Shown here: positions 30,171-49,256 of the stretch, piece after piece
Position numbering within the stretch: the first letter of the stretch is position 1
Layout of the letters: each line of letters begins with the position of its first letter
Translations under genes and position numbers: made by a program
Origin: an uncultured Acidobacteriota bacterium
GTDB lineage: Bacteria; Acidobacteriota; Terriglobia; Bryobacterales; Bryobacteraceae
NCBI GenBank assembly: GCA_900696665.1
Contig: CAADGY010000217.1
Coordinates: 62,001-126,000 of the forward strand
Length of the DNA: 64,000 nt
Reading direction: 5' to 3'
The notes under the pieces: generated by a model
Seen by the model: only the letters and a program-made list of their open reading frames with translations
Database searches by the model: none
What the model was told of the DNA's origin: nothing

Positions 30171-30890
30171 CTAATCAGGTATACCTGAATCAGGATGGTT
30201 AACCGGTTTGCGCAACCAGATATAGCAGTGGTTTCCAATGCGCCCGGCGTCCGGCGACCGGAACAATAGAAGATCCAGATACCGGAGTGGAAAGAGCATC
30301 CACCCGCAGAGGACATGCGACAGGGCCCGCCATGCCCGGAACGGAAGCAGCAACTTCACATACTCGATGAAGATAACGAGTAGCGTTGCAGTCGGCCCGG
30401 TACGCCATCCTTTGGCAATCAGGTCCAGTGGGCCAGCCAGCTCTTTCAGACCGTCGATCGTGAACCGGCGGAAGTCCTTGGGGCACTCATGAAAGGGATG
30501 ACAAAAGGGCGTTACAAGGTGAACGTATCCACCTGGCGCCAAAACGCGGCGGATTTCGCTCAGAACCCGTTCGGGATTACAGACGTGTTCCAGAACCGCA
30601 TCACATTCCACCCGCTGAAAAGCATCCGCCGGGAATGGCAATTGCTCCGCATCCGCAACCACGTCGACACCGGGAATCGCAAGCAGGTCGATGTTGATGT
30701 AGCCCTGAACCGTACAGCCCGCACCACCGATATACAGGTTCCACCGGCCAAGGGGGAAGTCCGTGGGCTCGGCTGGATTCATCACGAAGGGGTTCGGAGG
30801 ATGTAAAGCTTGCAGCAGCCGATCGCTCCAGCGGCGTGAGGTTCGCTTCCGATACCGTGATGCTAAGTCAGTCTCAGACATTCCGGGCAT
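30171..30890 (-). CDS. SAM-dependent methyltransferase (Methyltransf_11 type)
   Basis: The protein has 239 residues. A type-11 methyltransferase core is visible: [60 protein letters not shown] and [13 protein letters not shown]. The glycine-rich motif I is degenerate (IGGAGCT). The C-terminus is hydrophobic ([20 protein letters not shown]). Its last residues (HPDSGIPD) are encoded by a CAGGTATACCTG repeat unit, which may be an insertion that extended the protein. It overlaps the end of the PhyH gene by 17 bp and is probably co-transcribed with it. Confidence 0.8.
30176..30194. repeat. Dispersed copy of the 15-bp CAGGTATACCTG repeat
   Basis: CAGGTATACCTG (30176-30187) is followed by AAT and then CAGG, the same 15-bp spacing as in the array at 37.7-37.9 kb. 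It encodes the last residues of the methyltransferase and lies at the junction of two convergent genes. Confidence 0.7.
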
Positions 30891-34861: not shown

Positions 34862-35104
34862 GTGAAAATGCGCAATATTACATTTAATCTTCCCGCTGAT
34901 CTTGTGCGGCAGGCCAAAGTATATGCTGCCGAGCAGGATACGACAATCAACTCTCTCGTACGAGAGTTGTTGCAGGAGAAGTTGACGCGCGAGGGACGAA
35001 CCCGGATGGCGGCTGATCGGCTCCTTGATCTCGCGGAGTGCGGACCTTATTTCACCATCGATCCCGGTTCCATCCGGCGGGCGGAACTGCATGAGCGGCG
35101 CTAA
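34862..35104 (+). CDS. Ribbon-helix-helix antitoxin
   Basis: This 80-residue protein (MKMRNITFNLPADLVRQAKV ... AAEQDTTINSLVRELLQEKL) has the beta-strand/helix/helix signature of CopG/Arc-type regulators, and its tail should contact the toxin. The start is the GTG at 34862 or the ATG at 34868, just after the 32-bp palindrome. There is no ribosome site, so the message may be leaderless. It overlaps the PIN-toxin gene by 14 bp, the usual TA arrangement. Confidence 0.85.
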   Translation: MKMRNITFNLPADLVRQAKVYAAEQDTTINSLVRELLQEKLTREGRTRMAADRLLDLAECGPYFTIDPGSIRRAELHERR

Positions 35105-35546
35105 GGCATTCTTCGACACTAACGTATTGCTCTATATGTACGGCGGGGATCCGGACAAACGGGTACGAGCCAAACGGCTTTTTAAGCAGCATGCTGCCAG
35201 TGGACATATATTGCTGAGTACACAAGTGGTTCAGGAATTCTACGTAGCTGGTTCTCGAAAGCTTGGCATACCCCGGCGTGAATTGTACGAAGCTACGAAC
35301 GCTCTTCTGGACCTGCCGCTGGTCATTTCCGGTCCATCTCAAATCATCCTGGCCATTCAATACGAAGAGCAATACAAGATCTCATTCTGGGATGCCCTGA
35401 TTCTGGCTGCGGCACAATCCGGGGGCGCCGAGGTTCTATACACGGAAGATTTGAATGACGGGCAGGAGTACGGGCCGGTCATGGCCTGTAATCCGTTTAG
35501 TTCCAGGGCCCCGGGATCATCCATTTCCGACGGGAACGATACTTAG
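35091..35546 (+). CDS. PIN-domain toxin
   Basis: The ATG at 35091 gives about 151 residues beginning AKAFFDTNVLLYMYGGDPDK with the first PIN aspartate. STQVVQEFYVAG supplies the conserved glutamate. SFWDALILAAAQSGGAEVLY and TEDLNDGQ supply the C-terminal aspartates. All catalytic acids are present. Its 3' end overlaps the convergent recombinase gene by 4 bp, and the C-terminus (SSRAPGSSISDGNDT) looks like read-in from flanking DNA. It forms a TA module with the RHH antitoxin and marks the left part of the island. Confidence 0.87.
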   Translation: MSGAKAFFDTNVLLYMYGGDPDKRVRAKRLFKQHAASGHILLSTQVVQEFYVAGSRKLGIPRRELYEATNALLDLPLVISGPSQIILAIQYEEQYKISFWDALILAAAQSGGAEVLYTEDLNDGQEYGPVMACNPFSSRAPGSSISDGNDT

Positions 35547-36424
35547 TCCGGCAAGTAGAAGCTGGAGCTTTCTGTTGGCCGGGCGTGTAGGTAGCGGCCG
35601 GTGGTCGACACAGAGGCATGGCCAAGGGTAGTCTGCACAAGGTGGATCGGGGCGCTGCGGTCCAGCGCGTGGCTGGCGTGGGCATGGCGCATCCAGTGCG
35701 GCGAAACCTTTTCGAGACCGGCTTTCTTCGCGGCGGCGTAAACGATGCGGCGCACTTGGGAGGCGTCGAGATGACCACCGCCCTTCCGGCTGCGGAAGAC
35801 GGCATCGGCCGGGCCGGCATCCCCTTGAATGGCCAGCAATTGCACCCAGAACTTCGGCTTGAGCAGAATCGTCCGGGTTTTCCCGCGTTTGCCGAAAACG
35901 GTGATCTGGCCGCCTTCGGCCCGGGACACGGCATCGCACCACTTCAGGCCGCAGACTTCACTGACCCGGACCCCGGACACATAAAGCAGTTTCAGCAGCA
36001 CCCGGTCGCGGCCTTCGGGTGCCGCTTCAATGAGTTTGGCAACCTCGCTTTCCGCGAGAATGCGTTGGGCGAGCGAGTCGCGGTTCGGCCGGAGTTTCAC
36101 GGCCACTCCGACATTGAAAGGAAGGTAGCCGGTCTCCTGCGCAAAGGACAGCAGCGATTTAACGGCGGTGAGGGCCCGGTTCTGGCTGGCAGGTTTGAGA
36201 CTTCCCTGCCCCAGAGCCGCCGTATACGCCTGCACGTCGGCCAGAGTGATCCAACCAAGAGGTTTCTGCACGAAGGCACGAAAACGCCGGATATCAGCGG
36301 CATAAGCGCGGCGGGTGTGAGAGCTGACCTTCAGCGACAGCCAAAGTTCTACCAGGCCGGCATCGTTCGAGCCGTCCGGCGACGGCTGGACGGCAAACGC
36401 CGGCGCCGATATGAGTTCGCTCAC
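35543..36424 (-). CDS. XerC/D-like tyrosine recombinase
   Basis: The protein has 293 residues. The N-terminal SAM-like core-binding domain (SSHTRRAYAADIRRFRAFVQ) precedes a catalytic domain with R153 (SGVRVSEVCGLKW), a lysine hairpin (FGKRGKTR), H243 and R246 (HWMRHAHASHAL), H269 (TLGHASV) and the nucleophile Y278 (TTGRYLHARP). All the essential residues are present. It is short and Xer-like, not a long phage integrase. The neighbouring ParA and TA genes suggest plasmid resolution or integration of the island. The GTG start at 36424 overlaps AAGGAG, so the true start is uncertain. Confidence 0.9.
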   Translation of the reverse strand: MSELISAPAFAVQPSPDGSNDAGLVELWLSLKVSSHTRRAYAADIRRFRAFVQKPLGWITLADVQAYTAALGQGSLKPASQNRALTAVKSLLSFAQETGYLPFNVGVAVKLRPNRDSLAQRILAESEVAKLIEAAPEGRDRVLLKLLYVSGVRVSEVCGLKWCDAVSRAEGGQITVFGKRGKTRTILLKPKFWVQLLAIQGDAGPADAVFRSRKGGGHLDASQVRRIVYAAAKKAGLEKVSPHWMRHAHASHALDRSAPIHLVQTTLGHASVSTTGRYLHARPTESSSFYLPD

Positions 36425-36798: not shown

Positions 36799-37281
36799 AT
36801 GCCGGACCACCCATCGTATATTCATAAACTTGCGGGCATTCTGGCGGAGGCGCGCTCGCCTAAACCAATTCCCTTCTTCCGCCGCCGGGACATCGAGGCT
36901 CTCTTCGGGCTCAAGAAACGACAGGCCGTCAACCTCATGCACCGCATCGGGGCGATCCGCGTCAGCCGCGAACTTGCTGTCGAGCAGCGCGATTTGATCC
37001 GCTGGCTGGAACAGATGCTCTCGGACCCTTCCGTTGCAATCGAGCAGCGCCGGCACGAGCGGGTTATTAGCCGGATTGTCGAACTTAAAGCCGAAACCGC
37101 AGCCCGGGCGGTCCGAATCGTCCTACCCGACCCGGCACCTTCCGTTGATTTTCCTGAAGGCGTTTCGCTCCAGCCCGGCTTGCTGACCATCTCTTTTGAG
37201 AACGAACAGCAACTGCTTCAGCGCCTCTTTCTATTGGCGCGCGTGCTGGCCACACGGCCTCAGATACTGACCAACTTATAA
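36799..37281 (+). CDS. Unknown HTH protein of the ParA/recombinase island
   Basis: The ATG at 36799 gives 160 residues. Residues 25-75 (IPFFRRRDIEALFGLKKRQA, VNLMHRIGAIRVSRELAVEQ, RDLIRWLEQML) look like an HTH with a MerR/excisionase-like turn. The rest is charged and then hydrophobic, ending QPGLLTISFENEQQLLQRLF. No family is recognised. It is convergent with the 37297 gene. The 15-bp gap between them, together with the first bases of the latter, carries a CAGGTATACCTG repeat, which suggests that the two genes and the repeat belong to one system. Confidence 0.65.
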   Translation: MPDHPSYIHKLAGILAEARSPKPIPFFRRRDIEALFGLKKRQAVNLMHRIGAIRVSRELAVEQRDLIRWLEQMLSDPSVAIEQRRHERVISRIVELKAETAARAVRIVLPDPAPSVDFPEGVSLQPGLLTISFENEQQLLQRLFLLARVLATRPQILTNL

Positions 37282-37282
37282 A

Positions 37283-37302
37283 CAGGTATACCTGATTCAG
37301 GT
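37283..37302. repeat. CAGGTATACCTG repeat at convergent gene ends
   Basis: CAGGTATACCTG (37283-37294), ATT, then CAGGT (37298-37302) follow the 15-bp period of the array 420 bp to the right. Degenerate units continue to about 37320 and encode the C-terminal TGTPIGST of the leftward gene. Confidence 0.75.
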
Positions 37303-38004
37303 ACTCCCAATTGGAGTGCCGGTCAATGGATCCACAAAAACAACTCCCCGGTTCTTGATGTAATGTGTCAGTCCCGCGGTCTGGCGGCGTTTCAGAATCG
37401 CGTCGGGGCTGTAAACCAGGTAGGTTGTTCCGGCACTGGGTGTATGGCGCTCGGTTTCTTCAATGGCCAATTTATCCCGCAACCCTTGCAGATTCGCCTT
37501 GCAGTTGTTTGCCGTCAGGCCGCAAACGGCGCTGAGAGTGCGATAGCCGATAGTGACGATGCGGCTGTCCGGGTCACGGGCGATACCGTGATCCCAGAGT
37601 GCCTGATAAACCGCCTGTTCACCGAGAGAATGGCCATCCTGCGCGCGGAAGGCTTGGCGAATACGGCGCAGGAGAGCGATTTGGGTGACAGCAACACTGT
37701 GTGGAGTAATACTTGAAACAGGTATACCTGCTTCAGGTGTTGTAATAATAGGACCTGATTTGCCAGGTATACCTATATCAGGTACTGATTGCGGTATGGA
37801 AGATGATCCTCCCCCCGATACAGGAGCACCTTGTTCAGCAATACCTGAAACAGGTGTACCTGATTCTACAGAGTGTGGGGCTTCCACGACCACCTGCGGA
37901 CCCCGCAGAAGAAAGCTGACCGCGCTCCGCATATCGGCATCTGTCGGCCGCAGAAACTCGGTTACGTCGAAATCTTCAGACGTTTGCCGTTTGCGTTTGG
38001 CCAT
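37297..38004 (-). CDS. Winged-helix-like protein of unknown role, ParA partner
   Basis: This 235-residue protein overlaps the parA 3' end by 29 bp. Residues 45-100 are low-complexity with SGIPV-like pentapeptides (ESGTPVSGIAEQGAPVSG, VPDIGIPGKSGP, EAGIPVSS) encoded by the 15-bp DNA repeat. Residues 105-215 look folded: ALLRRIRQAFRAQDGHSLGE, then QAVYQALWDHGIARD and IGYRTLSAVCGLTANNCKAN, the last resembling a winged-helix recognition unit of replication or partition proteins. It occupies the place where ParB or Rep would be expected, but I recognise no family. Its own gene carries the repeat array it might bind. Confidence 0.65.
   Translation of the reverse strand: MAKRKRQTSEDFDVTEFLRPTDADMRSAVSFLLRGPQVVVEAPHSVESGTPVSGIAEQGAPVSGGGSSSIPQSVPDIGIPGKSGPIITTPEAGIPVSSITPHSVAVTQIALLRRIRQAFRAQDGHSLGEQAVYQALWDHGIARDPDSRIVTIGYRTLSAVCGLTANNCKANLQGLRDKLAIEETERHTPSAGTTYLVYSPDAILKRRQTAGLTHYIKNRGVVFVDPLTGTPIGST
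37719..37862. repeat. Array of 15-bp palindromic repeats inside the ParA-partner gene
   Basis: Units with consensus CAGGTATACCTGATT start at 37719, 37734, 37749, 37764, 37779 and, after a 42-bp break, at 37821, 37836 and 37851. Near-perfect palindromes are at 37719 and 37851 (one base changed), with a third at 37764 (CAGGTATACCTA). The others keep one half-site (CAGGT or ACCTG). The array is more AT-rich than its surroundings and stays in frame on the minus strand as SGIPV-type pentapeptides. Confidence 0.8.
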
Positions 38005-38764
38005 CGGATGCCTCTATCATCGCGGTGATTTGTGCAAAGGCGGCAAGATAATCCTGGGCCGCTTTGGAGTTTGGATCGAAGTCGAGAAGGGCCTTGCGCG
38101 CCCGGAAAGCCTTGTTGACGGTCTGATCGGTGCGGATAGCGGGAAGGATTGGAACGTCGAACATCTCGGACATCTTCTGCAGGCTTTGCTGCACCAGAGC
38201 GGTGACCGACAGCCGCTGATCAACCTGGCAGGGCATCAGCCCGATCGCGCGGATATTCGCCTTAATTAGATCGTTCAAAAGCCGCATCATGTCGTAAGCG
38301 GCATTGGCGCCGTTGAGGCTCAGCAGGTCCATGTCGACCGGAATAACGACATTACGGGCATAGACCATGGCGCAGGACTGCAGCAGGTTAATCGATGGGG
38401 CAACGTCAATAACTACGGCGTCGTAGCGGGACTCATAGGGCTCCATCATGATCTTCAATGCCAGTTCGCGGACCACGGCGCCCGCCATCGCCGATTCGGC
38501 CTGAATGGTGTCCTTGTTCCCGCACAGAACGTCGAGCTTATCGGTGACTTTCACGGTGCACTCGTCCAGGTGGAACTTGTGGATCAGAAACTGATTGAAG
38601 AAGTTACGGGGTTTCAGGTTCAGCATCACGCTGATTGACCCCTGGCTGTCAGTATCGATCAGCAGCGTCCGGTTCCCTTTACCGGCCAGATACCAGGCAT
38701 AGTTCACAGCACAGGTGGTCTTGCCAACGCCACCTCGTTGATTAGCAATCACTACCCGGATCAT
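37976..38764 (-). CDS. parA: ParA family partition ATPase
   Basis: The protein has 262 residues. A deviant Walker A is present as NQRGGVGKTT; the signature lysine of KGGVGKT is arginine here, which is unusual. Walker A' and B follow (LLIDTDSQGSISVML, DAVVIDVAPSINLLQS), with RTDQTVNKAFRARKALLDFD near the C-terminus. There is no N-terminal HTH, so this is a small type Ib-like or orphan ParA. It overlaps the 38761 HTH gene upstream and the 37297 gene downstream, so the three form one operon. Plasmid or chromosome partition is the expected role. Confidence 0.9.
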   Translation of the reverse strand: MIRVVIANQRGGVGKTTCAVNYAWYLAGKGNRTLLIDTDSQGSISVMLNLKPRNFFNQFLIHKFHLDECTVKVTDKLDVLCGNKDTIQAESAMAGAVVRELALKIMMEPYESRYDAVVIDVAPSINLLQSCAMVYARNVVIPVDMDLLSLNGANAAYDMMRLLNDLIKANIRAIGLMPCQVDQRLSVTALVQQSLQKMSEMFDVPILPAIRTDQTVNKAFRARKALLDFDPNSKAAQDYLAAFAQITAMIEASDGQTQTANV

Positions 38765-38949
38765 CGGGCCTCCGGTACGGCTTGCCTGCGAATCCGCTCC
38801 ACATCCTCAACAGTCCACAAACGGTAGTTGTTGCTGGGATCACGATACGGTTCGGGGATTTTCGATTCTTTCAGCCAGCGGTATAGGGTGGCCAGGGATA
38901 TGCCTAGAGACTCCGCAACCTGTGCTGTCTTCAGGTAATGCCGGTTCAT
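38761..38949 (-). CDS. MerR/excisionase-like HTH protein
   Basis: The ATG at 38949 gives 62 residues: YLKTAQVAESLGISLATLYR, then WLKESKIPEPYRDPSNNYRL. This is the HTH_17/MerR N-terminal winged helix used by excisionases and small regulators. The stop overlaps the parA start (ATGA). A promoter with -35 TTGCAC and -10 TACAAT ends 6 bp upstream, so the transcript should be nearly leaderless. It probably regulates the parA operon or acts with the recombinase. Confidence 0.82.
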   Translation of the reverse strand: MNRHYLKTAQVAESLGISLATLYRWLKESKIPEPYRDPSNNYRLWTVEDVERIRRQAVPEAR

Positions 38950-38955
38950 GCACAA

Positions 38956-38985
38956 ATTGTATGTGTGACTAGGGTTATAGTGCAA
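38956..38985 (-). promoter_or_regulatory. Promoter of the HTH-parA operon
   Basis: On the minus strand, TTGCAC (38985-38980) and TACAAT (38961-38956) are separated by 18 bp, and the ATG follows 6 bp after the -10. Transcription would begin at or next to the start codon (leaderless). Confidence 0.55.
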
Positions 38986-39019: not shown

Positions 39020-40171
39020 TCAGGCAACGGAACTGGACTGGCGTACTTCGGTCTGTTTCCAGAGTTTCCGGCTGGGGACAAACAAAACAGAGATGCCGCA
39101 CAAGGCTGCCGCGATCAGCACGACGAACGTCCAGCAGGGAGAAGTAATGCGCTTAACCGGCGAGCCCTCCGGAATCAGGGGGTTTAGTAGAGCGACAAGA
39201 TAAAACCCCGCCTGAGCGGAGAGCGCCGCCCACTTCCATACCGGTGGCAGGCCAAAGCTGGAAGCCAAAAGGAGCAGCAACGCGAACGGCAGCAGCAGGC
39301 GGCCCACCTTATGAGATATGAAATGAAACCACATTCGATTGGAAGGGCCAAGCAGGGCGGGGAAGGAGCGAATCGTTTGATACACCCCTGCCTGTGTGCG
39401 AACTTTCCGATGAAACTCGGCCTTCAGCGACGTGGGGTAATCGAACGCCTTGGCGGATTCATCCAGGATGATCCGGTAACCGCGGAAAAACGCGCCCAAC
39501 GGAAGCTGTACGTCGTCGAGCAACGTATCCGGAGAGAGCGGAGTGGCCAGTTCACGGCGCATGGCGTAGATGCACCCGCTGGCGCCGATCACTGAATCCA
39601 CACGGCTCAAGTGCTTCCGAATCCATTTTTCGTATCTCCAGTAAAGCCCTACGTTCAGCTCACCCAGAGTTTCCCCTTTGCGGATAATGAGCTCTCCGCT
39701 TGCGACTCCCACCTGCGGGTCGGAAAAACAGCTCACCAGATGAGCCAGACTGGAAGGCTCGAGTTGCTGGCGGACGTCGGTGAAAAACAGGATATCGCCC
39801 GTAGCATGCTGCACGGCCGTGTTCAACGCACTAGCTTTTCCGCTTCTTGGGATGCGGTAAAAGCGGATGCGGGCAGATTCGAACCGCTTGACAATTTCGT
39901 CGGTCCTATCGGTAGAACCATCTGAAACCACAATGATTTCCATCAACTCGCGGGGGTATTTGAGCGCCTGGATGGATTCTAGCTTTTGCTGGACCCATAG
40001 CTCTCCGTTGTGTACGGGCAGGAGTACGGATACCGAAATATGATGTGAGGGTTTCTTCCGGATCGAGGCGCCTCTGCGGCTAAGAAGGGCCAGGAGCACG
40101 GGATAACCCGCCAACACATAGATAATAAAGACTGCACTCAATATAAATGTGCCGGTTGCGAGGTCATTCAT
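39020..40171 (-). CDS. Membrane glycosyltransferase family 2
   Basis: The ATG at 40171 gives about 383 residues. It starts with a membrane helix (FILSAVFIIYVLAGYPVLLALL) and a GT2 catalytic domain: SVLLPVHNGELWVQQKLESI, IIVVSDGSTDRTDEIV, DILFFTDVRQQLEPS. Here the usual DxD is DVR, and GASGCIYAMRRELATPLSPD corresponds to the acceptor loop. Three or four helices close the C-terminus, as in processive or polymer-secreting GT2 enzymes. It probably adds sugars to a lipid-linked exopolysaccharide. The next 255 bp (40172-40426) hold nothing I can name. Confidence 0.87.
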   Translation of the reverse strand: MNDLATGTFILSAVFIIYVLAGYPVLLALLSRRGASIRKKPSHHISVSVLLPVHNGELWVQQKLESIQALKYPRELMEIIVVSDGSTDRTDEIVKRFESARIRFYRIPRSGKASALNTAVQHATGDILFFTDVRQQLEPSSLAHLVSCFSDPQVGVASGELIIRKGETLGELNVGLYWRYEKWIRKHLSRVDSVIGASGCIYAMRRELATPLSPDTLLDDVQLPLGAFFRGYRIILDESAKAFDYPTSLKAEFHRKVRTQAGVYQTIRSFPALLGPSNRMWFHFISHKVGRLLLPFALLLLLASSFGLPPVWKWAALSAQAGFYLVALLNPLIPEGSPVKRITSPCWTFVVLIAAALCGISVLFVPSRKLWKQTEVRQSSSVA

Positions 40172-40426
40172 GGGTGGCAATAGAAGGGTAAACCGGCCTG
40201 GTAATGCCAGTTTGGATGAGTTGAACTGTCGGCGTCCTAAGCGTTTGCATGGCCTCCGAGCCGGTGGGCGCCAATCGGCGTTCCTCTTATTATGTGCCCC
40301 AGCCATTTAGATGCCGGGCAGGGAACTACCCTACAAGATTAACACTTTTTGGCCAGGCATCCCATGGGAATGCGGGGAATTCCGGAAATTCAACCCGAGG
40401 CATTCGCAGTAGAGTCTGCTATGGGC

Positions 40427-41545
40427 TCAGTGGCAGCTTTTCCGAATCGCTTCAGCGATTTGACCGGTAACTTCCATGGTGCCCATAAGTGCCCGGTGAG
40501 GGAGCCAGAACGTGTCTTCGATTCGGGCTTCCGCATTGGGGCAGGGCTCAACACGGCATCCGCCGGCACGGTACAGCGGGTTCCGGTAGAGCGGGTGCGG
40601 ATAAAAAGGAGTACACGGCACACCGGCATCGGCGAGTGAGCGGCAGAAAGTATTCCTGGAAACGCCGAGTGTTTTCTGATCGACACAGCCAAGGAACAGG
40701 TACCAGGAGTTGCTGCTGACCTCCGGAGCGATCTCCTGAAACCGAAGTCCCTTTACATCGGCGAGATCGGATCGGAGAAATTGCGCATTCCGCGTACGCA
40801 ACGAGATCTGCTCCGGCAGCCGTTCAAGTTGTGCAAGCAGAACGGCCGCCTGAAAGGCCGTGATGCGGTAGTTGGTTCCCAGGGTGTAATGATGGAACCA
40901 GCCCTGGTCCTGACGTCTTCCCTGGTTGGCGAAGGACCGCACCTGTTCATCGAAGCCGGCATCGTTAGAAAGCAGGATGCCACCCTCGCCCGCCGTCATC
41001 ACCTTGGAATTTTGAAAGCTAAAAGATCCCGCCAGGCCGAAACTACCCGCACGGCGGCCTCTCCATTCCGAGCCGTGGGCATGGGCGGCATCCTCAATCA
41101 GCGCCAGCCCATGCCTGGCGGCTAATTGCGGCAACTGATCCATGTCGGCCAAAGGTCCGCCGAAGTGGACAGGGATGATGGCGCGTGTTTTCGATGTGAT
41201 GGCGCGGGCGGCGCAATCAGGGTCCATTTGAAAGCTCGAGGGACCGATGTCGACGAAAACCGGAATGCCGCCCACCCGCGACACAGCAGTAGCCGTTGAA
41301 ATGAAAGAGATGGCGGGCACAATGACTTCGTCGCCTTCTTGAACGCCGGCGGCCTGAAGGGCCATCTCGAGTGTGACCGTTCCATTCACGGCGGTTACGC
41401 CATACTTGCAGTGCTGGAATTCGGCGAACTCACGCTCGAAGCGCTCCACCACCTCATGAAAACCGCCCCATTGGCGGCTGTACAGTACTTCCTTCAGAGA
41501 CTCCAGTTCGCGGTCGGTAGCAATAGGCCATTCAGGAATAAGCAT
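40427..41545 (-). CDS. DegT/DnrJ/EryC1-type sugar aminotransferase
   Basis: The ATG at 41545 gives 372 residues (MLIPEWPIATDRELESLKEV). PLP-enzyme features are clear: NGTVTLEMALQAAGVQEGDE, ALIEDAAHAHGSEW with the ring-stacking residues, and the Schiff-base lysine in SFQNSKVMTAGEGGI. Such enzymes transaminate nucleotide keto-sugars (here perhaps dTDP-4-keto products of RfbB) to make amino sugars of surface polymers. The frame is open to 42091 but that extension overlaps the opposite gene. It lies upstream of the GT2 gene on the same strand. Confidence 0.9.
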   Translation of the reverse strand: MLIPEWPIATDRELESLKEVLYSRQWGGFHEVVERFEREFAEFQHCKYGVTAVNGTVTLEMALQAAGVQEGDEVIVPAISFISTATAVSRVGGIPVFVDIGPSSFQMDPDCAARAITSKTRAIIPVHFGGPLADMDQLPQLAARHGLALIEDAAHAHGSEWRGRRAGSFGLAGSFSFQNSKVMTAGEGGILLSNDAGFDEQVRSFANQGRRQDQGWFHHYTLGTNYRITAFQAAVLLAQLERLPEQISLRTRNAQFLRSDLADVKGLRFQEIAPEVSSNSWYLFLGCVDQKTLGVSRNTFCRSLADAGVPCTPFYPHPLYRNPLYRAGGCRVEPCPNAEARIEDTFWLPHRALMGTMEVTGQIAEAIRKSCH

Positions 41546-41653
41546 AGGGCACCGGGCAGGGTTGGCAAATTGGCGGCAATGAAGTAACCATGTTAGCCCA
41601 GTTGCTCCGTTATATTCGCTTACCCCATTCTCGTGAGAGACTTTAAGTTTGAC

Positions 41654-41676
41654 TCTTGCGAGTGCCGCTCGCAAGA
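41654..41676. promoter_or_regulatory. Hairpin in the leader of the barrel gene
   Basis: TCTTGCGAG-TGCCG-CTCGCAAGA is a perfect 9-bp stem with a 5-nt loop, about 60 bp before the TTG start at 41735. It could be an operator or an mRNA stem. The 190-bp divergent gap holds nothing else clear. Confidence 0.45.
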
Positions 41677-41734
41677 ATTCAAAGGAGAGCCTGAAAGGCC
41701 TGCTGCACACTGAAGCTTTTAAACCGGAGGGACA

Positions 41735-43072
41735 TTGAGGTATAGACTCGCCGCTCTGATTTTCATTCTTTGGGCCAGCTCCGTTGTAGCACAGGTCATG
41801 CCTTCCGGCGGCCCATCTATTTTGAGCCGCCAGCCCAGCCTGCGTACCGGACCGGCAGATGCATTGTTCACCATCAGACCTTCCGCCAGCATTGTAGGCA
41901 GATACGATCACGGTCTTTTCCTGCCCGCGACGGATGCTGAAGGCAGGTTGTTGGGGCAGGACAGCTACGGTATCGCCGCCATCCTTGGATTGGACGGATT
42001 TCATCAAACGAGAGACAGCGTTGTCAGCCTCGATTACCGGGGGCAGTTCCGGCACTACACAGAGAACGATTATCTGGACGGGAGCGATCACGCGCTATCG
42101 CTCGGCTATGAACACCGGCTGACCAACCGGACGCTCGTTGCCGGAACGGCATTCGGTGGTCTTTACTCCCGTTCGTTTGGGGTACCCGGATTGGGGAGAA
42201 TGAGCCCTCCAATCGTCGATATCGGCCCCGAGATTATTCCGACCAACGAGATTTTCGATAGCCGCGTTTACTATGCGGGCGCCGGTGCGAATATCGTCCA
42301 TCAAAAATCCATGAGGCTATCGTTCGGCGCTGGCGCAAACGGATTTACGGTACACCGGCGTTCCCGGTCTCTGGCGGGTGTCATCGGTGCTTCCGCCCAG
42401 GGCAACGTCGCCTACCGGTTGTCCAGAAGACAAACCATCGGCGCCGACTATACGTTTACGAAATTCGACTTCACAAAGGGCTTTGGCCTATCCGACATGC
42501 ACATCGTGTCTCTGAACTACGCAGCCCAGCTAACGCGACACTGGACCTTCTCCACCCGTGCGGGCATCTTCCGATTCGAGAATCTCAGGGTTGTTACCGT
42601 ACAGTTAGATCCAGTGATCGCGGAGATTCTGGGGCGCAAGACAGGACTGGAAACCCATCATCAGGTAAACTACGGCCCGATTGTGCGGGCTGTGCTGACA
42701 CGCGAGTTCCAGCGTGGGAGCTTCAGTGCCAGCTATAGCAGAATCGTCAGCCCGGGCAACGGGATTTACCTGAGCTCCATCGCAGAGTCCGGGCGCGTGG
42801 GTTACAACTACCGGGGCTCACGCCGGTGGAATTCCGGCGTGGCCGCCGGCGTAACTCAATACGGCGCCCTGACCCAGACTATCGGGAAATATCACAGCTA
42901 TTACGGCAGCGCCCAGACATCGTACCGTCTGAAGCGGTTTCTGCACCTGACAAGTTCTTTCATTGTCAGGAGCCATAGGATTGGCGAGGGTTCGGATTTC
43001 AAACGGACATCCTATTCGGCATCCATCGGCCTGGCGTTTGCCCCAGGCGAGATCCCTCTATCGCTAAATTGA
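41735..43072 (+). CDS. Outer-membrane beta-barrel, exopolysaccharide-locus type
   Basis: No ATG fits; the TTG at 41735 is supported by GGAGG at 41726-41730 and a signal peptide (LAALIFILWASSVVAQ). The remaining 425 residues alternate polar and hydrophobic positions in strands separated by tight turns (VVSLDYRGQFRHYTENDYLD, GSFSASYSRIVSPGNGIYLS, VGYNYRGSRRWNSGVAAGVT). The protein ends in GLAFAPGEIPLSLN. Comparable 16-18-stranded barrels appear in exosortase/EPS loci and may conduct the polymer. The family is not identified further. Confidence 0.65.
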   Translation: MRYRLAALIFILWASSVVAQVMPSGGPSILSRQPSLRTGPADALFTIRPSASIVGRYDHGLFLPATDAEGRLLGQDSYGIAAILGLDGFHQTRDSVVSLDYRGQFRHYTENDYLDGSDHALSLGYEHRLTNRTLVAGTAFGGLYSRSFGVPGLGRMSPPIVDIGPEIIPTNEIFDSRVYYAGAGANIVHQKSMRLSFGAGANGFTVHRRSRSLAGVIGASAQGNVAYRLSRRQTIGADYTFTKFDFTKGFGLSDMHIVSLNYAAQLTRHWTFSTRAGIFRFENLRVVTVQLDPVIAEILGRKTGLETHHQVNYGPIVRAVLTREFQRGSFSASYSRIVSPGNGIYLSSIAESGRVGYNYRGSRRWNSGVAAGVTQYGALTQTIGKYHSYYGSAQTSYRLKRFLHLTSSFIVRSHRIGEGSDFKRTSYSASIGLAFAPGEIPLSLN

Positions 43073-43083
43073 TTGGCCCCCGG

Positions 43084-43797
43084 CTACTGGCCCGTTCGTG
43101 CCGCCGTTACCCGATCGACAAGCGTTTTGAAGAGCTCCGGCGATATCCCTTGACCATCGATGAAAAATTTGTAGCTTCCGCCTGCGAAAGGCTTCACTTC
43201 AAGCTCGTAGGGATTCTTCTGTGTAATCTCCTTGATCGAACGGTACTCCCAGCGGCGGGAATGACTCACGTTGTTCACCGACTCATAACTCAACTGCGAA
43301 GAGGAGACGATCAGCCGGCCCCTACAGCTACCGCGAAAATGATCATGACGGGCTACAAACGTTTCCACAGCCGCGGGGACTGGGGTGTTTACACTGGCGG
43401 CGCCGCTAGTTGAAACCACGGACGGTCCCATGCCAAACCAGGACTTAATCGGCGATGTATCGGTGGGGACGATCGCGCGGAATATGGCCCGGCTGCTCGT
43501 CCCCGAACTGTCCTGGAGAGGATGACGGAATTGCAGAGTGATGTTGGAGCCCTCTGTAATAACATCCGTCATGTCGCTCCGCACAACGGCAAACGACAGG
43601 TCGACCTTCTGATCGTCGACGTACACCAAATGATCCCCTAGAAGCATCAATTTTCCGGTAGTAGTACCGAAGGGAACCGCACGCTCGACGGGGATCGCGC
43701 GGGCAACCGTCTGCGCCTCAGCGGAAATCGTCATCAATGCGCACGATACAAGCACAAAAGCGCCCACCAGTCTTTTCAGACACAGTACGTTTTTCAT
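43084..43797 (-). CDS. Secreted hypothetical protein with PH-like C-domain
   Basis: The protein has 237 residues with a signal peptide (LVGAFVLVSCALMTISAEAQ). The C-terminal 90 residues (HFRGSCRGRLIVSSSQLSYE, WEYRSIKEITQKNPYELEVK, SYKFFIDGQGISPELFKTLV) resemble a bacterial PH/GRAM-like beta sandwich with a terminal helix. No catalytic motif is seen. A strong promoter lies 95 bp upstream. It is convergent with the barrel gene (11-bp gap) and lies downstream of the second epsI, so it may belong to the second exosortase locus. Confidence 0.65.
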   Translation of the reverse strand: MKNVLCLKRLVGAFVLVSCALMTISAEAQTVARAIPVERAVPFGTTTGKLMLLGDHLVYVDDQKVDLSFAVVRSDMTDVITEGSNITLQFRHPLQDSSGTSSRAIFRAIVPTDTSPIKSWFGMGPSVVSTSGAASVNTPVPAAVETFVARHDHFRGSCRGRLIVSSSQLSYESVNNVSHSRRWEYRSIKEITQKNPYELEVKPFAGGSYKFFIDGQGISPELFKTLVDRVTAARTGQ

Positions 43798-43893
43798 GGT
43801 TTTTCTTTCGGTTGGGTTTCGATGCAGGTTGTACTGCCGCCTCTAATATCACCCAGGCGATGAAGAGGAGTCAGGCAGCAACCACGTAATACT

Positions 43894-43923
43894 ATTATAC
43901 CAGCGCAGAATTATACACGTCAA
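43894..43923 (-). promoter_or_regulatory. Sigma-70 promoter of the PH-like protein gene
   Basis: On the minus strand, TTGACG (43923-43918) and TATAAT (43899-43894) are 18 bp apart, close to consensus. The leader to the start at 43797 is about 90 nt. Confidence 0.65.
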
Positions 43924-43961
43924 TTTTCACCCAATTACAGAAACCCACCGGCTATGCCGGC

Positions 43962-44609
43962 TTACGCCGGTAGAAACTGCTGTAAAGGTGCAAACAGGTG
44001 CTGGACGAAATCCACCGCGGTAGCAGTAGCTGCGCTGGTGCTTTCCTGTACAGGCACGACGACGCGCACCAACGCCGTGTCCGTGCGGTTATAACGGATG
44101 GCATCCAACACCATGAAGATCTTCGCGGAGTACTCGCTGGCAATGACACGCCCGGGCGTCTGATACCAGTACAGTACAATGCTCTTCGAATCCCCTTTGG
44201 AGACGATATACCGGTTGACCTCGATCGGAGTAGACCGGCCGGGCACGTTGATCGGCAGGACTTCAGCGGAACTCGGCACCCATCCGGAGCCGGGCAAGCA
44301 ATTTCTGGGAGAATGTGGACTCACTCCGGTGCGCTGTGATTTGAAATAGGCGATAAACACGCTGGCCGACTGATTCTTTTTGTCGACGTACCAGCGCGTG
44401 AGAGTGTCGTCGGCTTTCAACACATCCAGAACGTCATCACCGATTTTGTCATCCCGGAACAGGCTCCAATCGCCCAGCACGGTGGGAAACGTGGTGAGCG
44501 GATCGTGCGGCGGAATGTTTTCGGTTCGGGATGTGGTGTGAAACAGCAGGCCCTGGGCAATCAGCACCACGGTAAGAACAAGAGCTCGCTTGTTTCGGAA
44601 GAAGGACAT
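43962..44609 (-). CDS. epsI: EpsI family protein (second exosortase locus)
   Basis: The ATG at 44609 gives about 215 residues with an N-terminal helix (RALVLTVVLIAQGLLFHTTS). The EpsI signature is intact: VFIAYFKSQRTGVSPHSPRN followed by CLPGSGWVPS, and IVLYWYQTPGRVIASEYSAK. It begins 1 bp after the exosortase stop, so it is the exosortase partner. It is the second EpsI in the window; the two share the HSPxxCLPGSGW core but differ elsewhere. Confidence 0.87.
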   Translation of the reverse strand: MSFFRNKRALVLTVVLIAQGLLFHTTSRTENIPPHDPLTTFPTVLGDWSLFRDDKIGDDVLDVLKADDTLTRWYVDKKNQSASVFIAYFKSQRTGVSPHSPRNCLPGSGWVPSSAEVLPINVPGRSTPIEVNRYIVSKGDSKSIVLYWYQTPGRVIASEYSAKIFMVLDAIRYNRTDTALVRVVVPVQESTSAATATAVDFVQHLFAPLQQFLPA

Positions 44610-44610
44610 A

Positions 44611-45501
44611 TCAGGACTCACCTTCCCGCACACGATGGTACACGGCGTTTATAATCCGATGCGTAATCACCAGGGCCGCCAGCGCCACCATGAACATGAT
44701 CCACCCCTCGGCGGTATGAAAAAAGCCGTCCGCCCATTCCCGCTTGTATTCGCTCAGGATACCCGTGATGGTGACCCGGCTGGCATTGGTGATAATTGCG
44801 ATAGGGATGGCCGCCACCAGAAGCACCGCGCGCATCCACTTTTTCTCATCGAAAAAATAGGCATAGACGAGCGACAGGAACGACAGCGAGAGCAGTGACC
44901 GGATACCGCTACAAGCCTCGACAACGGAAAGCCGCTGGCTTGGAAGCTCCAGAATATTGCCTTCGCGCAGAACGGGTATGCCGATCAGGTTCAGGGCGGT
45001 TTCGGCCACCGAACTGGCAAACAACTGCAGCGGCAGCGTGATCTGGTTGTAGATGATGGCAGGGATCGGAACCATGAACAGCAGCAGGAACAGCGAAAAG
45101 GCGAGCACGCGAATCGTGGCCATGCCTCCCAGCAACAGCAGCGCTCCCGCCAGCGAAATGATGAAGGCGGTGCGGGCCAGGAAGAGTTCCGCGCCCAGTG
45201 TGGCCACCAGTAGCTGCAGCGCGCCGTATAGCACCACAACCAGGCCCAGCCAGCTTCCACCCTTCGCCGCGGCCGCAAGAACCTTGTCCCGCCGCTGCCA
45301 GGCGATGTAGGAGGCAATAACCGGCACAAACAGCCCGTGCCCCATATCCTCGTCGTTCATCCATTGGTTGAACAGGCGCGTCAGCACAGGCCAGTAAGCG
45401 GCAAACAATAGCGCTCCGAACCACAGAATCGAAATCAAAGTAAAGCGGAACTGGGAATCGGGAGCACTTGCTAACTGGGGAGAGGTCTCAGTGGAGGCCA
45501 T
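44611..45501 (-). CDS. Second exosortase
   Basis: This is a 296-residue polytopic protein with about eight helices. The triad is canonical: C197 in VVEACSGIRSL, R242 in TNASRVTITG and H262 in FFHTAEGW. Unlike the exosortase at 12.8 kb, the EACSGIR motif is unchanged. It is paired with EpsI, with the barrel and PH-like proteins downstream. Which PEP-CTERM proteins it processes cannot be told from the window; no sorting-signal gene lies next to it. It is divergent from the MarR-protoglobin operon. Confidence 0.9.
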   Translation of the reverse strand: MASTETSPQLASAPDSQFRFTLISILWFGALLFAAYWPVLTRLFNQWMNDEDMGHGLFVPVIASYIAWQRRDKVLAAAAKGGSWLGLVVVLYGALQLLVATLGAELFLARTAFIISLAGALLLLGGMATIRVLAFSLFLLLFMVPIPAIIYNQITLPLQLFASSVAETALNLIGIPVLREGNILELPSQRLSVVEACSGIRSLLSLSFLSLVYAYFFDEKKWMRAVLLVAAIPIAIITNASRVTITGILSEYKREWADGFFHTAEGWIMFMVALAALVITHRIINAVYHRVREGES

Positions 45502-45591
45502 CGCTTACTTTCTTCAAGTACACCACACGGAACCAATACCCACAACAGGGCTAAAGGAGTGGAACCGGTAAACGCTTTTCCGGCACGCCCC

Positions 45592-45636
45592 TTGACAGGG
45601 TGGCAGAGCAATCTTATTATTACTTAGGATTCCTAA
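45592..45636 (+). promoter_or_regulatory. Promoter and MarR operator of the marR-protoglobin operon
   Basis: TTGACA (45592-45597) and TATTAT (45615-45620) are 17 bp apart. The start region is covered by TTAGGA-T-TCCTAA (45624-45636), a perfect palindrome around one base, typical in size of MarR operators. It places transcription near 45627, which excludes a GTG start at 45600. Confidence 0.75.
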
Positions 45637-45641
45637 TTAAT

Positions 45642-46277
45642 ATGACCGGACTTTCCCTTTCCATGCGTATCGCTCAAGGCCTGATGAAGATCGGGCTCGC
45701 TATGAAGGCCAACGAGTGGAGGGAATCCGCGAAGCTTCAACTCTCGCCCACGCAGGCTCAGATTCTGGCCGCGCTGGCAACCCAGGGTCCGCTACGGCTG
45801 TCGGAGCTGGCAGCGCTCCTTGCTATTACTCTGGCGACGGCGAGCGACGCCGTGTCGAGTTTGGCTAAAAAGGGGCTTGTGGAAAAGCGGACGTCCGAGC
45901 AGGACGCTCGTGCGCTTTCTATTGTGCCAACCCGCGCCGGGCAGAAAGCCGCGAAAGCAGTAGCGGCATGGCCCGATTTCCTGGCTACCGCCGTCGATAC
46001 CCTTTCGCCCGACGAGCAAGTCACGTTTCACCGGGGCCTGGTGAAGATGATTGGAACGCTACAGAGACGCGGTCAAATTCCGGTAGCCCGCATGTGTACA
46101 CACTGCACGTACTTCCGGCCCAACGTCCACGCCGGCAGCCACACGCCGCACCATTGCGATTTTATCGACTCCGCCTTCGGCGACGGATTCATCCGGATTG
46201 ATTGTGATGATTTCATTGCGGCAACAACCTCCGAGGGTTGGGACGCCTGGGTAGCTAGAGGTTCCGCAACACAATAA
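45642..46277 (+). CDS. MarR-family regulator with a Cys/His-rich C-terminus
   Basis: The ATG at 45642 follows the operator and gives 211 residues. A MarR winged helix is clear: LSPTQAQILAALATQGPLRL, SELAALLAITLATASDAVSS, then LAKKGLVEKRTSEQDARALS. After the dimerisation helix comes an unusual tail: C152, C155 (MCTHCTYF), a run of histidines (H163, H167, H170, H171), C172 and C188. This could bind a metal or Fe-S cluster, or respond to redox or NO. It is co-transcribed with the protoglobin 23 bp downstream, so gas or redox sensing is inferred. Confidence 0.85.
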   Translation: MTGLSLSMRIAQGLMKIGLAMKANEWRESAKLQLSPTQAQILAALATQGPLRLSELAALLAITLATASDAVSSLAKKGLVEKRTSEQDARALSIVPTRAGQKAAKAVAAWPDFLATAVDTLSPDEQVTFHRGLVKMIGTLQRRGQIPVARMCTHCTYFRPNVHAGSHTPHHCDFIDSAFGDGFIRIDCDDFIAATTSEGWDAWVARGSATQ

Positions 46278-46300
46278 GCCATCTACGAAAGGAAAAAGTT

Positions 46301-46891
46301 ATGTCTGCGCAAATTCCGGGATACACTTATGGCCAGCCGCAGTTGACGCATTCCCCAGTGAGCCTGCAAGATTTCGGCCTGCTCAAACAGACGGTTCTCT
46401 TTACCGACGAAGACACGCGCTATCTGCGAATGTCGTTTGACATCCTCAAGGATCAGACGGGCGATATCCTTGACGTCTGGTATGGGTTCGTCGCGTCGCA
46501 TCCCCACCTGGTCTACTACTTCGGAAAGAAGCAGGATGGCCAGCCCGACAGTGAATACCTGGCGGCTGTCCGGAAACGCTTTGAGCAATGGATCCTGGAC
46601 ACCGCGGCTGCCAACTACGATCAGAAGTGGCTCGATTACCAGTATGAAATCGGACGGCGGCACCATCGCACAGCAAAGAACACAACCGATGGCGCGCAGT
46701 CGGTAGACAACATCAGCTATCGCTATCTGCCGGCGCTGATCTATCCGGTTACGGCCACTCTGAAGCCGTTCCTGGCGAAGAAAGGCAACACTGCTTCCGA
46801 AGTCGAGGGGATGCACCAGGCTTGGGTGAAGTCCGTTCTTCTGCAAGTCATACTGTGGAGCCAGCCCTATGTCAAAGACGGCGATTTCTGA
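46301..46891 (+). CDS. Protoglobin
   Basis: This 196-residue single-domain haem protein follows an AAAGGAAA ribosome site. The sequence IPGYTYGQPQ, WYGFVASHPHLVYYF, AVRKRFEQWILDT, LDYQYEIGRRHHRTAKN and YPVTATLKPFLA is very close to the Methanosarcina acetivorans protoglobin as I recall it. The proximal haem ligand should be the first histidine of the HH pair (H121). It lacks a signalling domain. Protoglobins bind O2, CO and NO; physiological roles proposed include NO or O2 scavenging. The upstream MarR gene is its likely regulator. Confidence 0.93.
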   Translation: MSAQIPGYTYGQPQLTHSPVSLQDFGLLKQTVLFTDEDTRYLRMSFDILKDQTGDILDVWYGFVASHPHLVYYFGKKQDGQPDSEYLAAVRKRFEQWILDTAAANYDQKWLDYQYEIGRRHHRTAKNTTDGAQSVDNISYRYLPALIYPVTATLKPFLAKKGNTASEVEGMHQAWVKSVLLQVILWSQPYVKDGDF

Positions 46892-46915
46892 GCGGCCGCC
46901 CGGTACCGGAGCCGT

Positions 46916-47935
46916 TCAAACCGTCCCGCGTGCGCCGTAGTTGAGGGCGTAGTAGTTTTGATATTCGCCCGACTTCACCCGCTTCACCCAGCCGGAGTTC
47001 TGACGGTACCAGTCAATGGTGCGCGCCAGTCCTTCATCAAAACCGGTAAGCGGCTTCCATCCTGTTTCGGCCATCAGTTTGGCGCTCGAGAGGGCATACC
47101 GCCTGTCGTGTCCGGGGCGGTCTTTCACGGTCTCCAGCAGGCTTTCCGGTTTGTGTGCCGCCTCCAGGATGCGGCGGATCACTTCCAAGTTCGGCAGCGA
47201 ACAATTCCCACCAATATTGTAGATTTCGCCCTCGCGGCCTTTTTTCAAAACTTCCCGAATCGCGCGGCAGTGGTCATCCACGTAAAGCCAGTCGCGCACC
47301 TGCATGCCGTCTCCGTATACGGGCAAGCGCCGGTCTTCCAAAGCATTCGAGATCATCAGCGGGATGAGCTTTTCGGGAAACTGGTACGGGCCGTAGTTAT
47401 TGGATGCGCGGGTGACGATTACCGGCAACCTGTAAGTGGTGAAGTAAGACAGCGCCAGCAGATCGGACCCGGCTTTCGATGCCGAATAAGGGCTGCTGGC
47501 CCTTAACGGATAATTCTCACTTGCTTCGTGTGGAGGATCGATGCTGCCGTAGACTTCGTCGGTGGAGATATGCACGAAACGTGCGACGTTATGCATTCGC
47601 GCCGCTTCCAACAGCCGGAACGCGCCGCGGAGGTTGGTCTCGAACACTGGATCCGGAGACAGAATGCTACGGTCCACGTGGGACTCGGCGGCGAAGTGCA
47701 CCACGGCGTCGAACCGCGAGGATGCGAATAGTCCGTCCAGCAGCGCGGCGTCGCAGATGTCTCCCTGTACGAAGCGATAGCGCGGATGGTTCTCGATCTC
47801 CGCCAGGTTTTCGAGATTGCCCGCGTAAGTCAGTTTGTCGAGATTGACGATTTCGGCCGATTCATCGGCGGCGATGGTGGTGCGAATGAACGCCGATCCG
47901 ATAAAACCAGCTCCTCCGGTGACCAGTACTCTCAT
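46916..47935 (-). CDS. rfbB: dTDP-glucose 4,6-dehydratase
   Basis: This is a 339-residue extended short-chain dehydrogenase. The NAD-binding GxxGxxG is VTGGAGFIGSAFIR. The catalytic region shows ISTDEVYGS and the YxxxK pair in YSASKAGSDL, followed by NNYGPYQFPEKLIPLM. It converts dTDP-glucose to dTDP-4-keto-6-deoxyglucose, the precursor of rhamnose and many amino sugars. It is last in the rfbA-rfbC-rfbB operon; its start overlaps the rfbC stop. rfbD is missing from the window. Confidence 0.95.
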   Translation of the reverse strand: MRVLVTGGAGFIGSAFIRTTIAADESAEIVNLDKLTYAGNLENLAEIENHPRYRFVQGDICDAALLDGLFASSRFDAVVHFAAESHVDRSILSPDPVFETNLRGAFRLLEAARMHNVARFVHISTDEVYGSIDPPHEASENYPLRASSPYSASKAGSDLLALSYFTTYRLPVIVTRASNNYGPYQFPEKLIPLMISNALEDRRLPVYGDGMQVRDWLYVDDHCRAIREVLKKGREGEIYNIGGNCSLPNLEVIRRILEAAHKPESLLETVKDRPGHDRRYALSSAKLMAETGWKPLTGFDEGLARTIDWYRQNSGWVKRVKSGEYQNYYALNYGARGTV

Positions 47936-48492
47936 TTGCGCTGCGTTTCCCAGTCGTAATTGATGCGCGGATCGTTGTACGGAATGCGCCCTTCGTCGGA
48001 GGGATTATAAAAATGATCCGTCACATAGACCAGAACCGCGGGGCTGTCGCCGATCACCTTGTAGCCGTGTCCGACACCTGGAGGAATCAGCACTTGCCAT
48101 GGCCGCAGTGCGCCCAGGTACAGCGTATTGCGCGCACCGAACGTGTGCGAATCGCTGCGAAGATCGATCAGCGCCACCTGTAGCATTCCCGCCGCCGGCA
48201 CCCAGAAGTCGGTCTGATGCTGATGGTAGTGAAAAGCTTTGATAGTTCCGGGATAGCTGATGGCGGTGGAGACCTGCGTGGTTTCGGGCGAATACTGCGA
48301 GACCAGGCCTTTGCCCATGCGGATCACTTCCAGAAAGTAGCCGCGGTCGTCGGGCCACAAGGTATAGGGTTGCACCCGCACACCCGCGATCAGGTCCGGG
48401 GAATCCGGCGATTGAATGACCTTCCCGATTCCTTTTTCACATTGCGGGAGTTCCACTTCTTCAACCCGCTTCACAACGAATGTCTGCCCCAT
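47932..48492 (-). CDS. rfbC: dTDP-4-dehydrorhamnose 3,5-epimerase
   Basis: The protein has 186 residues. The cupin-fold epimerase motifs are visible: DDRGYFLEVIRMG, the catalytic-region KAFHYHQHQTDFWVPAAG, QVALIDLRSDS and the tyrosine-containing LIPPGVGHGYKVIGD. The start codon overlaps the rfbA stop (TGATG). It epimerises the keto sugar from RfbB at C3 and C5. The sequence is slightly divergent from classical RmlC (KAFHYH rather than RGLHxQ), so a related epimerase forming another 6-deoxysugar is possible. Confidence 0.87.
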   Translation of the reverse strand: MGQTFVVKRVEEVELPQCEKGIGKVIQSPDSPDLIAGVRVQPYTLWPDDRGYFLEVIRMGKGLVSQYSPETTQVSTAISYPGTIKAFHYHQHQTDFWVPAAGMLQVALIDLRSDSHTFGARNTLYLGALRPWQVLIPPGVGHGYKVIGDSPAVLVYVTDHFYNPSDEGRIPYNDPRINYDWETQRK

Positions 48493-49256
48493 CAATTTTC
48501 CGCGCCGCCCACGGCGGAAGCCGCAACGCCCTCCATGGCTTCGCGGCTCTCCTTCACCAGGTTAGCCGCCCGCAGCAGCGAGTCGAAAGTTCCGGCATCG
48601 GTCCACCAGCCTTCGAGGTAGTCGAACGACATGCTTTGTTCCCGGATGTAGGCGTTGTTCACATCCGTGATTTCGAGTTCGCCACGGTTTGAGGGAACGA
48701 GCTGCTTGACTTTGTCGAACACGGTTTCGTCGTACAGGTAAATGCCGGTGACCGCATAATTCGACTTCGGCTTTAGAGGTTTTTCTTCGATGCCTACGAT
48801 CCGGTTGCCGTCAATCTCAGCAACGCCGAAGCGCTCGGCGTCCGGAACTTTCTTCAGCAGAATCCTGGCGCCGCGCTCCTGCCGCCGGAAATTTTCGACA
48901 GCCGGGCGGATGCCGCCCTCGATGATGTTATCGCCCAGGATGACGCAGATGCGCTGGCCATCGGCGAAATGTTCGGCCAGAGAGAGCGCGTCGGCGATGC
49001 CGCCTTCACCTTCCTGGTACGTATAGTTCAGATGCTTCAGTCCGAACTCTTTGCCGTTCCCCAGCAGACGAAGGAAATCGCCCGCGTTCTTGCCGCCGGT
49101 AACCACCAGAATGTCCTGAATCCCCGCATCGACGAGCGATTGCAAAGGATAGAAGATCATCGGCTTGTCATAGATGGGGAGCAGATGCTTATTGGTGATT
49201 TTCGTCAGCGGGAAAAGGCGGCTGCCGGTGCCTCCGGCCAGGATGATGCCTTTCAT
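48492..49256 (-). CDS. rfbA: Glucose-1-phosphate thymidylyltransferase
   Basis: This is a 254-residue nucleotidyltransferase. The N-terminal GGTGSRLFPLTKITNKHLLP holds the nucleotide-binding loop. VILGDNIIEGG supplies the metal aspartate, and the later YLEGWWTDAGTFDSLL is the sugar-binding end. It is shorter than E. coli RmlA (about 290), as in the RffH-like short forms of many soil bacteria. It makes dTDP-glucose for RfbB and is the first gene of the operon. The 137-bp gap upstream contains a GTTGG-AAA-CCAAC hairpin. Confidence 0.93.
   Translation of the reverse strand: MKGIILAGGTGSRLFPLTKITNKHLLPIYDKPMIFYPLQSLVDAGIQDILVVTGGKNAGDFLRLLGNGKEFGLKHLNYTYQEGEGGIADALSLAEHFADGQRICVILGDNIIEGGIRPAVENFRRQERGARILLKKVPDAERFGVAEIDGNRIVGIEEKPLKPKSNYAVTGIYLYDETVFDKVKQLVPSNRGELEITDVNNAYIREQSMSFDYLEGWWTDAGTFDSLLRAANLVKESREAMEGVAASAVGGAEN

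Follow-up and report, generated by a model that had tools for sequence, protein, structure and literature searches.

Why should an array of palindromic repeats lie within a coding sequence, directly next to a parA gene, and does the protein encoded there bind its own gene? The question arises from a stretch of 64,000 nucleotides of acidobacterial DNA, referred to here as the window, that is part of a contig of 192 kb in a draft genome of 6.0 Mb. An earlier note on this sequence had likened the array to a plasmid centromere and had suggested that the gene may encode the protein that recognises it. The gene is the last of a minus-strand operon whose ends overlap: a small HTH_17/MerR/excisionase-like protein (38761-38985), conserved upstream of ParA, is followed with a 4-nt overlap by a ParA ATPase of 262 residues without an N-terminal HTH (37976-38764; Pfam AAA_31, 1.5e-34; PHROG ParA-like partition protein, 2.8e-40), which in turn overlaps by 29 nt the gene of a 235-residue partner protein (37297-38004). 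The HTH protein also matches the PADLOC model mad1 (3.7e-14), the HTH protein of a methylation-associated defence system, a match that probably reflects just a shared excisionase-like HTH.

The array of CAGGTATACCTG palindromes is real: its coordinates, sequence and reading frame check out, and the repeats lie in frame inside the minus-strand ORF 37297-38004, directly downstream of ParA, as had been described. Among the eight units originally listed, four are good palindromes, namely CAGGTATACCTG at 37719-37730 (perfect, 0 mismatches), CAGGTATACCTA at 37764-37775 (1 mismatch), CAGGTGTACCTG at 37851-37862 (1 mismatch) and CAGCAATACCTG at 37836-37847 (2 mismatches), and a fifth, CAGGAGCACCTT at 37821-37832, is weak (4 mismatches). 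The units at 37779 and 37734 differ from CAGGTATACCTG at 5 and 6 positions and are CAGGT half-sites, and 37749, with 8 mismatches, was rejected as a repeat copy. The 15-bp steps of the earlier note likewise hold in stretches only, the distance from 37779 to 37821 being 42 bp, with the frame kept. Its list also lacked two perfect copies. One, CAGGTATACCTG at 37283-37294, is non-coding and lies directly past the stop codon of the partner gene; the other, at 30176-30187 in the context TCAGGTATACCTGAATCAGG, lies at the 3' end of gene 30171-30890, 7 kb from the array, and is the sole 14-bp perfect TCAGGTATACCTGA in the genome. A perfect copy would fall within 20 kb by chance with a probability of ~0.001, and the distant site is either a second site of the system or such a coincidence; a half-site is found 15 bp further on, and the gene that ends there encodes a methyltransferase.

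Five sites with at most 2 mismatches to CAGGTATACCTG fall within 37283-37862 (580 bp), a stretch for which the remainder of the window predicts 0.027 (Poisson P ~1e-10), and when up to 3 mismatches are allowed the whole window holds 38 sites, against a shuffle mean of 13 and a count that none of 100 shuffles reached. A tandem-repeat search with TRF did not report the array, because its copies are too diverged. Codon choice in the repeat stretch is also distinct from that of ParA and the winged helix, with CCT used for 7/9 prolines (vs 0/13), ATA for 4/8 isoleucines (vs 1/26) and GGT for 6/10 glycines (vs 4/22). Elsewhere in the window, three 156-bp tandem repeats (87% matches) at 50243-50711 have an FG-GAP-like coding character.

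The partner protein consists of an N-terminal peptide, a low-complexity linker whose coding DNA holds the palindrome array, and a C-terminal winged helix. It has no family match in Pfam, NCBIfam, PHROGs or PADLOC, and the family is not named in the libraries searched. In particular, the window protein matches neither ParB_N (CTPase) nor HTH_ParB in Pfam or NCBIfam, nor Phage_rep_O (PF04492); RepA_N (PF06970) gave no Pfam match in the window protein or in the homologues scanned, and a Pfam scan of the homologues L045, L046, L047, L050, L053 and L027 returned no match. A distant relative, L039, does match Phage_rep_O in Pfam (6e-8), and L022 matches DnaD_N weakly. The winged-helix domain (residues 108-235; 37300-37683, minus strand) is the conserved core of the family, and an AlphaFold2 model of these C-terminal 128 residues, built from an alignment of 14 native homologues, has a pLDDT of 93.3. 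In fold comparisons the model resembles CRP-family DNA-binding domains (Z ~9.8 over 66 residues), TrmBL2 (Z 8.9) and the N-terminal domains of RepA_N proteins (4pql, Z 8.5; 4pt7, Z 8.1; rmsd 6.3-6.5 over 97 residues), with a further RepA_N-like structure match to 5kbj (TM 0.52); a profile search of PDB sequences gave chance matches only. Generic winged-helix likeness dominates these matches to the predicted structure, and the fold does not name a function.

The window protein stops right after its winged helix, and no additional domain for replisome recruitment is evident. Long homologues continue into a helical C-terminal domain (AlphaFold pLDDT 92) that has no convincing match in the PDB (best Z 6.4, on a long helix) and that therefore cannot decide between an initiator and a partition protein. 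At the other end, the N-terminal 35 residues (37900-38004, minus strand) comprise a basic patch and then a weakly conserved hydrophobic motif, for which a 22-sequence alignment gives the consensus W-E-x(4)-P-x-L-x-G-x-x-S-F-L. The ParA-binding motif of ParB has been described as aliphatic and positively charged (PMC12462528), and we infer that these residues are a candidate ParA-contact peptide.

Searches of 150, 396 and 299 genomes, together with named genomes, yielded ~28 usable homologues once L016, L017, L031-L034, L038 and L040-L044 had been set aside as spurious or as generic HTH matches only. The records of the homologous loci are from Acidobacteriota and include Granulicella rosea DSM 18704 (L053), Edaphobacter lichenicola X5P2 (L052) and MAGs of Bryobacter and Solibacter; no homologue was found among the plasmids of PLSDB, among phages or in viral contigs. 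Every locus that extends far enough upstream has ParA immediately before the partner, and the two genes usually overlap. The winged helix is conserved, whereas no alignment is possible for the linkers that precede it and, in long forms, follow it. A DNA repeat is present in nearly all of these linkers, and most homologues have there, on the flanks of the winged helix, an array of short sites that are usually palindromic. The arrangement is more general than the window alone could reveal.

The sequence of the site varies by lineage. CAGGTATACCTG sites are found in the window, L045 and L006, the last of these being a homologue (G124, 1310-2113) that is split over two frames by a frameshift or a sequencing error and that retains its sites, with copies downstream. 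Other loci have CAGGTGCACCTG (L046), CCTAASTTAGG (L007, L008), TACSGTA-type sites (L009, L055, L047), CCCACSGTGGG (L012-L015), GCTACWGTAGC (L018), ACCCATGGGT (L022), GCAACCSGGTTGC (L039), GTGGGCANNCTGCCCAC (L054), GACCACWGTGGTC (L050, L028, L079), ATCCCCWGGGGAT (L052, L053, L026) or TTGAACGTTCAA (L029, L030). L011, L025, L027 and L036 hold repeats that are direct or asymmetric, with no clear palindrome in L011, L025 and L036, and some homologues have a weak array or none (hardly any sites in L010, two apiece in L007 and L013). Only one genome, G127, was seen with two copies, and their motifs differ, L022 having ACCCATGGGT and L010 a few TACSGTA-like sites at most; this single case would fit incompatibility.

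Is it then the DNA or the encoded peptide that is kept? The comparison of homologues advocated in the earlier note comes out on the side of the palindromes, since the peptides change and the repeat arrays stay. Judged from the sequences, the conserved unit is DNA: a gene may hold its sites in two or even three frames, sites face either way and also lie past stop codons, and their synonymous codons are unusually conserved. A single gene can read the same DNA site in more than one frame: the palindrome TTGAACGTTCAA of L029/L030 is read in two (IERSx and LNVQ), and a 10-bp unit of L036 in all three. Inverted copies in L011 and L027 encode different peptides, and the window, L014, L018, L027 and L047 have further copies in the non-coding DNA that follows the stop codon.

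The codon test considered the codons of unchanged residues in pairs of related genes and compared how many were identical inside and outside the sites. Identical codons were more frequent inside for L029/L030 (25/26 vs 89/194, p=3e-7), L028/L079 (28/31 vs 145/275, p=3e-5), L053/L052 (9/11 vs 89/242, p=0.004), L053/L026 (13/18 vs 96/259, p=0.005) and L014/L015 (20/29 vs 56/127, p=0.02); the pairs L009/L055 and L052/L026 offered too few codons within sites for the test. When codons were resampled from ParA usage, repeated palindromes exceeded expectation in the window (p=0.005) and in about a dozen homologues, and several single genes, the close relative L045 among them, were not significant. 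Such resampling is a better measure than counting all palindromes under synonymous permutation, which has little power because permuted codons in repetitive peptides keep much of the repeat. Most partner genes hold 2-6 sites per kb, against 0-0.2 per kb outside them.

Homologues with a common site tend to have a common recognition helix. Across 25 homologues, similarity of the recognition helix correlates with similarity of the site (r=0.61), and a correlation persists when similarity elsewhere in the domain is taken into account (partial r=0.39, Mantel p=0.0002), a comparison in which shared ancestry is only partly controlled and the site consensuses were hand-curated from a motif search. L014 and L022, which share 67% of the helix and little else (19%), have a common half-site, CCCA, at different spacing. 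This co-variation indirectly supports the suggestion that the gene encodes a protein that binds its own array, and the protein probably does bind palindromes within its own gene. The ~28 winged helices, each with its own candidate sites in the same gene, amount to a natural experiment in protein-DNA co-evolution, in which a specificity code could be read from sequence.

The operon belongs to a recurring module that comprises the HTH_17 protein, ParA, the partner, a 160-aa protein and a tyrosine recombinase. In the window, the 160-aa protein (36799-37281, plus strand; homologues in L046, L047, L049, L051 and L055) has no family match and tracks the recombinase; it may serve as a directionality factor or bind DNA in some other role. 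The recombinase (35543-36424, minus strand) is XerC/XerD-like, and a VapBC-like toxin-antitoxin pair (ribbon-helix-helix and PIN-domain proteins, 34862-35546) directly adjoins it. No conjugation genes were recognised near the window module, and a search for attachment repeats bounding it found none with confidence. At 39020-48500 of the window, and also in L014, L046, L048, L052 and L053 (G350:C19), the module adjoins exopolysaccharide-type genes, judged from ORF sequences to encode glycosyltransferases, sugar transferases, a UDP-glucose dehydrogenase and an exosortase; an integration hotspot, island cargo and coincidence are all possible for this adjacency of several chromosomal copies.

Elsewhere the module is carried by a circular conjugative plasmid of 55 kb and by ICE-like islands, and it stands next to tyrosine recombinases. 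The plasmid, G304:C9 (55,313 bp, with a 95-bp terminal overlap), encodes a TrwC relaxase, VirB genes, SSB, ArdC and RepB_primase, and no other replication initiator was recognised among the ORFs scanned; it also has a separate, distant ParB_N/HTH_ParB protein, which might be the real partner of ParA. Its sites (at most 2 mismatches) are confined to the module and its immediate surroundings at 11261-16033, where they lie close to the recombinase, upstream of the operon, within the gene and just past it. The site upstream of the operon adjoins a stretch that is among the plasmid's most AT-rich (about 13,300-13,600). From reading of the ORF sequences, L050 and G252 adjoin mnmE and have an integrase of the P4 type, and genes of conjugation type accompany L047 and L056; these settings look like ICEs. 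Together, these loci outline what would be a maintenance module of conjugative plasmids and ICE-like elements across the Acidobacteriota, apparently without a name and with no PLSDB match.

What might the array do there? The reading to which we lean, with modest confidence, is that the protein is a ParA partner with a centromere built into its own gene. Gene 37297-38004 would encode ParA's DNA-binding partner, whose C-terminal winged helix, probably dimeric, would recognise palindromes of the type TCAGGTA-TACCTGA; the array in the linker-coding DNA and the copy past the stop codon would together form a centromere-like cis site. Protein loaded on the array would contact ParA via the N-terminal basic and hydrophobic peptide, ParA would then segregate the DNA, and binding so near the operon would also regulate it. 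Direct self-binding, dimerisation, contact with ParA and a function in partition are the putative steps of this scheme. ParA linkage, the overlap with ParA and the short forms that end after the winged helix favour it, as do the DNA-level conservation of the sites, their high density in the partner genes and confinement to the module region on G304:C9, the co-variation of helix and site, the N-terminal motif and the precedent of SCP2. Against it stand the plasmid G304:C9, which has no other recognised initiator and has a separate ParB_N/HTH_ParB protein, the RepA_N fold matches, the Phage_rep_O match of L039, and the homologues in which arrays are weak or absent, palindromes unclear or resampling non-significant. 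A plasmid centromere, as first proposed, is the leading reading, but the evidence does not separate it from the iterons of a replication origin.

It is possible, though we think it doubtful, that the partner is instead a replication initiator and the array its origin iterons, placed inside the initiator's own gene, with ParA linked as in many replication/partition operons. In-gene origins are known for pSK41 RepA, lambda O and repABC RepC, and G304:C9, with its relaxase, VirB, SSB, ArdC and RepB_primase genes, would otherwise lack a recognised initiator among the ORFs scanned. The 97-residue resemblance to RepA_N N-terminal domains, the L039 match to Phage_rep_O and the weak DnaD_N match of L022 point the same way, as does the AT content of the array stretch, 0.62 where the DNA around it has about 0.43. 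However, short forms, that of the window included, do without the helical C-terminal domain of the long forms, and nothing evident in them would recruit a replisome; the ParA overlap, with no ParB-family gene alongside, points to a ParA partner; and CRP-type regulators score at least as high as RepA_N in the fold comparison, with no Pfam match to RepA_N itself.

Centromere and replication-origin roles of the array may also coincide. A single winged helix that serves as both ParA partner and replication initiator, with the lineage-specific iterons in the linker-coding DNA of its own gene as both centromere and origin, seems to us rather unlikely. If it were true, one gene that recognises itself would carry with it all the information by which a conjugative element is maintained, and joint changes of recognition helix and iterons would create new incompatibility groups.

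Improbable, in our view, is an array that acts as operator only, with the winged-helix protein autoregulating the operon and ParA in some other role. Sites do lie upstream of the operon as well (G304:C9 13250, G499:C6 4888, L047 5457, L048 6668, L052 6272, L053 6253 and 6324), but as many as 14 sites, placed to either side of the domain and far downstream of the promoter, exceed what an autorepressor needs, and the sites persist while their sequence turns over. Largely refuted by the sequences, and very improbable indeed, are a pentapeptide linker with palindromes as its by-product and selfish insertions like Rickettsia palindromic elements (the latter rejected on the lineage-specific motif and lack of dispersal): the sites are in frame in the window and most homologues, yet identical DNA is translated in two or three frames, non-coding and inverted copies occur, codon conservation is in excess inside sites, and the sites keep to the module instead of being dispersed across the genome.

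A self-binding ParA partner with an in-gene centromere would be a variant of a known design, in which the cis site lies inside the gene of its candidate binding protein. In replication systems, the Rep boxes of pSK41 occupy the middle of rep and encode a deletable linker peptide (PMC5703833). The RepA proteins of pSK41 and pTZ2162 resemble the acidobacterial family in having a winged-helix DNA-binding domain and semi-palindromic repeats inside the initiator gene (PMC5703833, PMC7145576), and repeats inside the gene of a candidate initiator are the RepA_N trait found here; in contrast, the acidobacterial family has no Pfam RepA_N match, is linked to ParA, has sites on both sides of the domain, is carried on conjugative elements of Acidobacteriota and includes members that end after the winged helix. 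The lambda origin maps within O and has inverted-repeat iterons, so that palindromic iterons for a dimeric initiator again lie inside its own gene (PMC5043065), although that setting is a phage with the partner P and no ParA, and only the distant L039 matches Phage_rep_O. In repABC operons, a ParA-family gene and a DNA-binding replication protein share one operon and oriV lies within repC (PMC3155836), but there is a separate ParB (RepB), the RepC origin is without iterons, and no similarity to the acidobacterial family was detected.

Compared with type I ParABS systems, the window has the adjacency to parA, and canonical ParB domains are absent from the partner. The closest shown precedent for the centromere reading is SCP2 of Streptomyces, where the 18-bp inverted repeat parS is part of the coding sequence for ParT, the protein that binds it (PMC12260392). 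The CTP-independent, ParABS-like ParA-ParT-parS system of SCP2 shares with the window a ParA-type ATPase and a cis site inside the partner's coding sequence, and inverted repeats within the partner gene, here candidate sites, are the anatomical trait in common. ParT is ParB-like with one described internal site, whereas the window partner is a predicted winged helix, with CRP- and RepA_N-like matches and no ParB domain, and in place of the single site of SCP2 the acidobacterial family has an array whose sequence changes between lineages.
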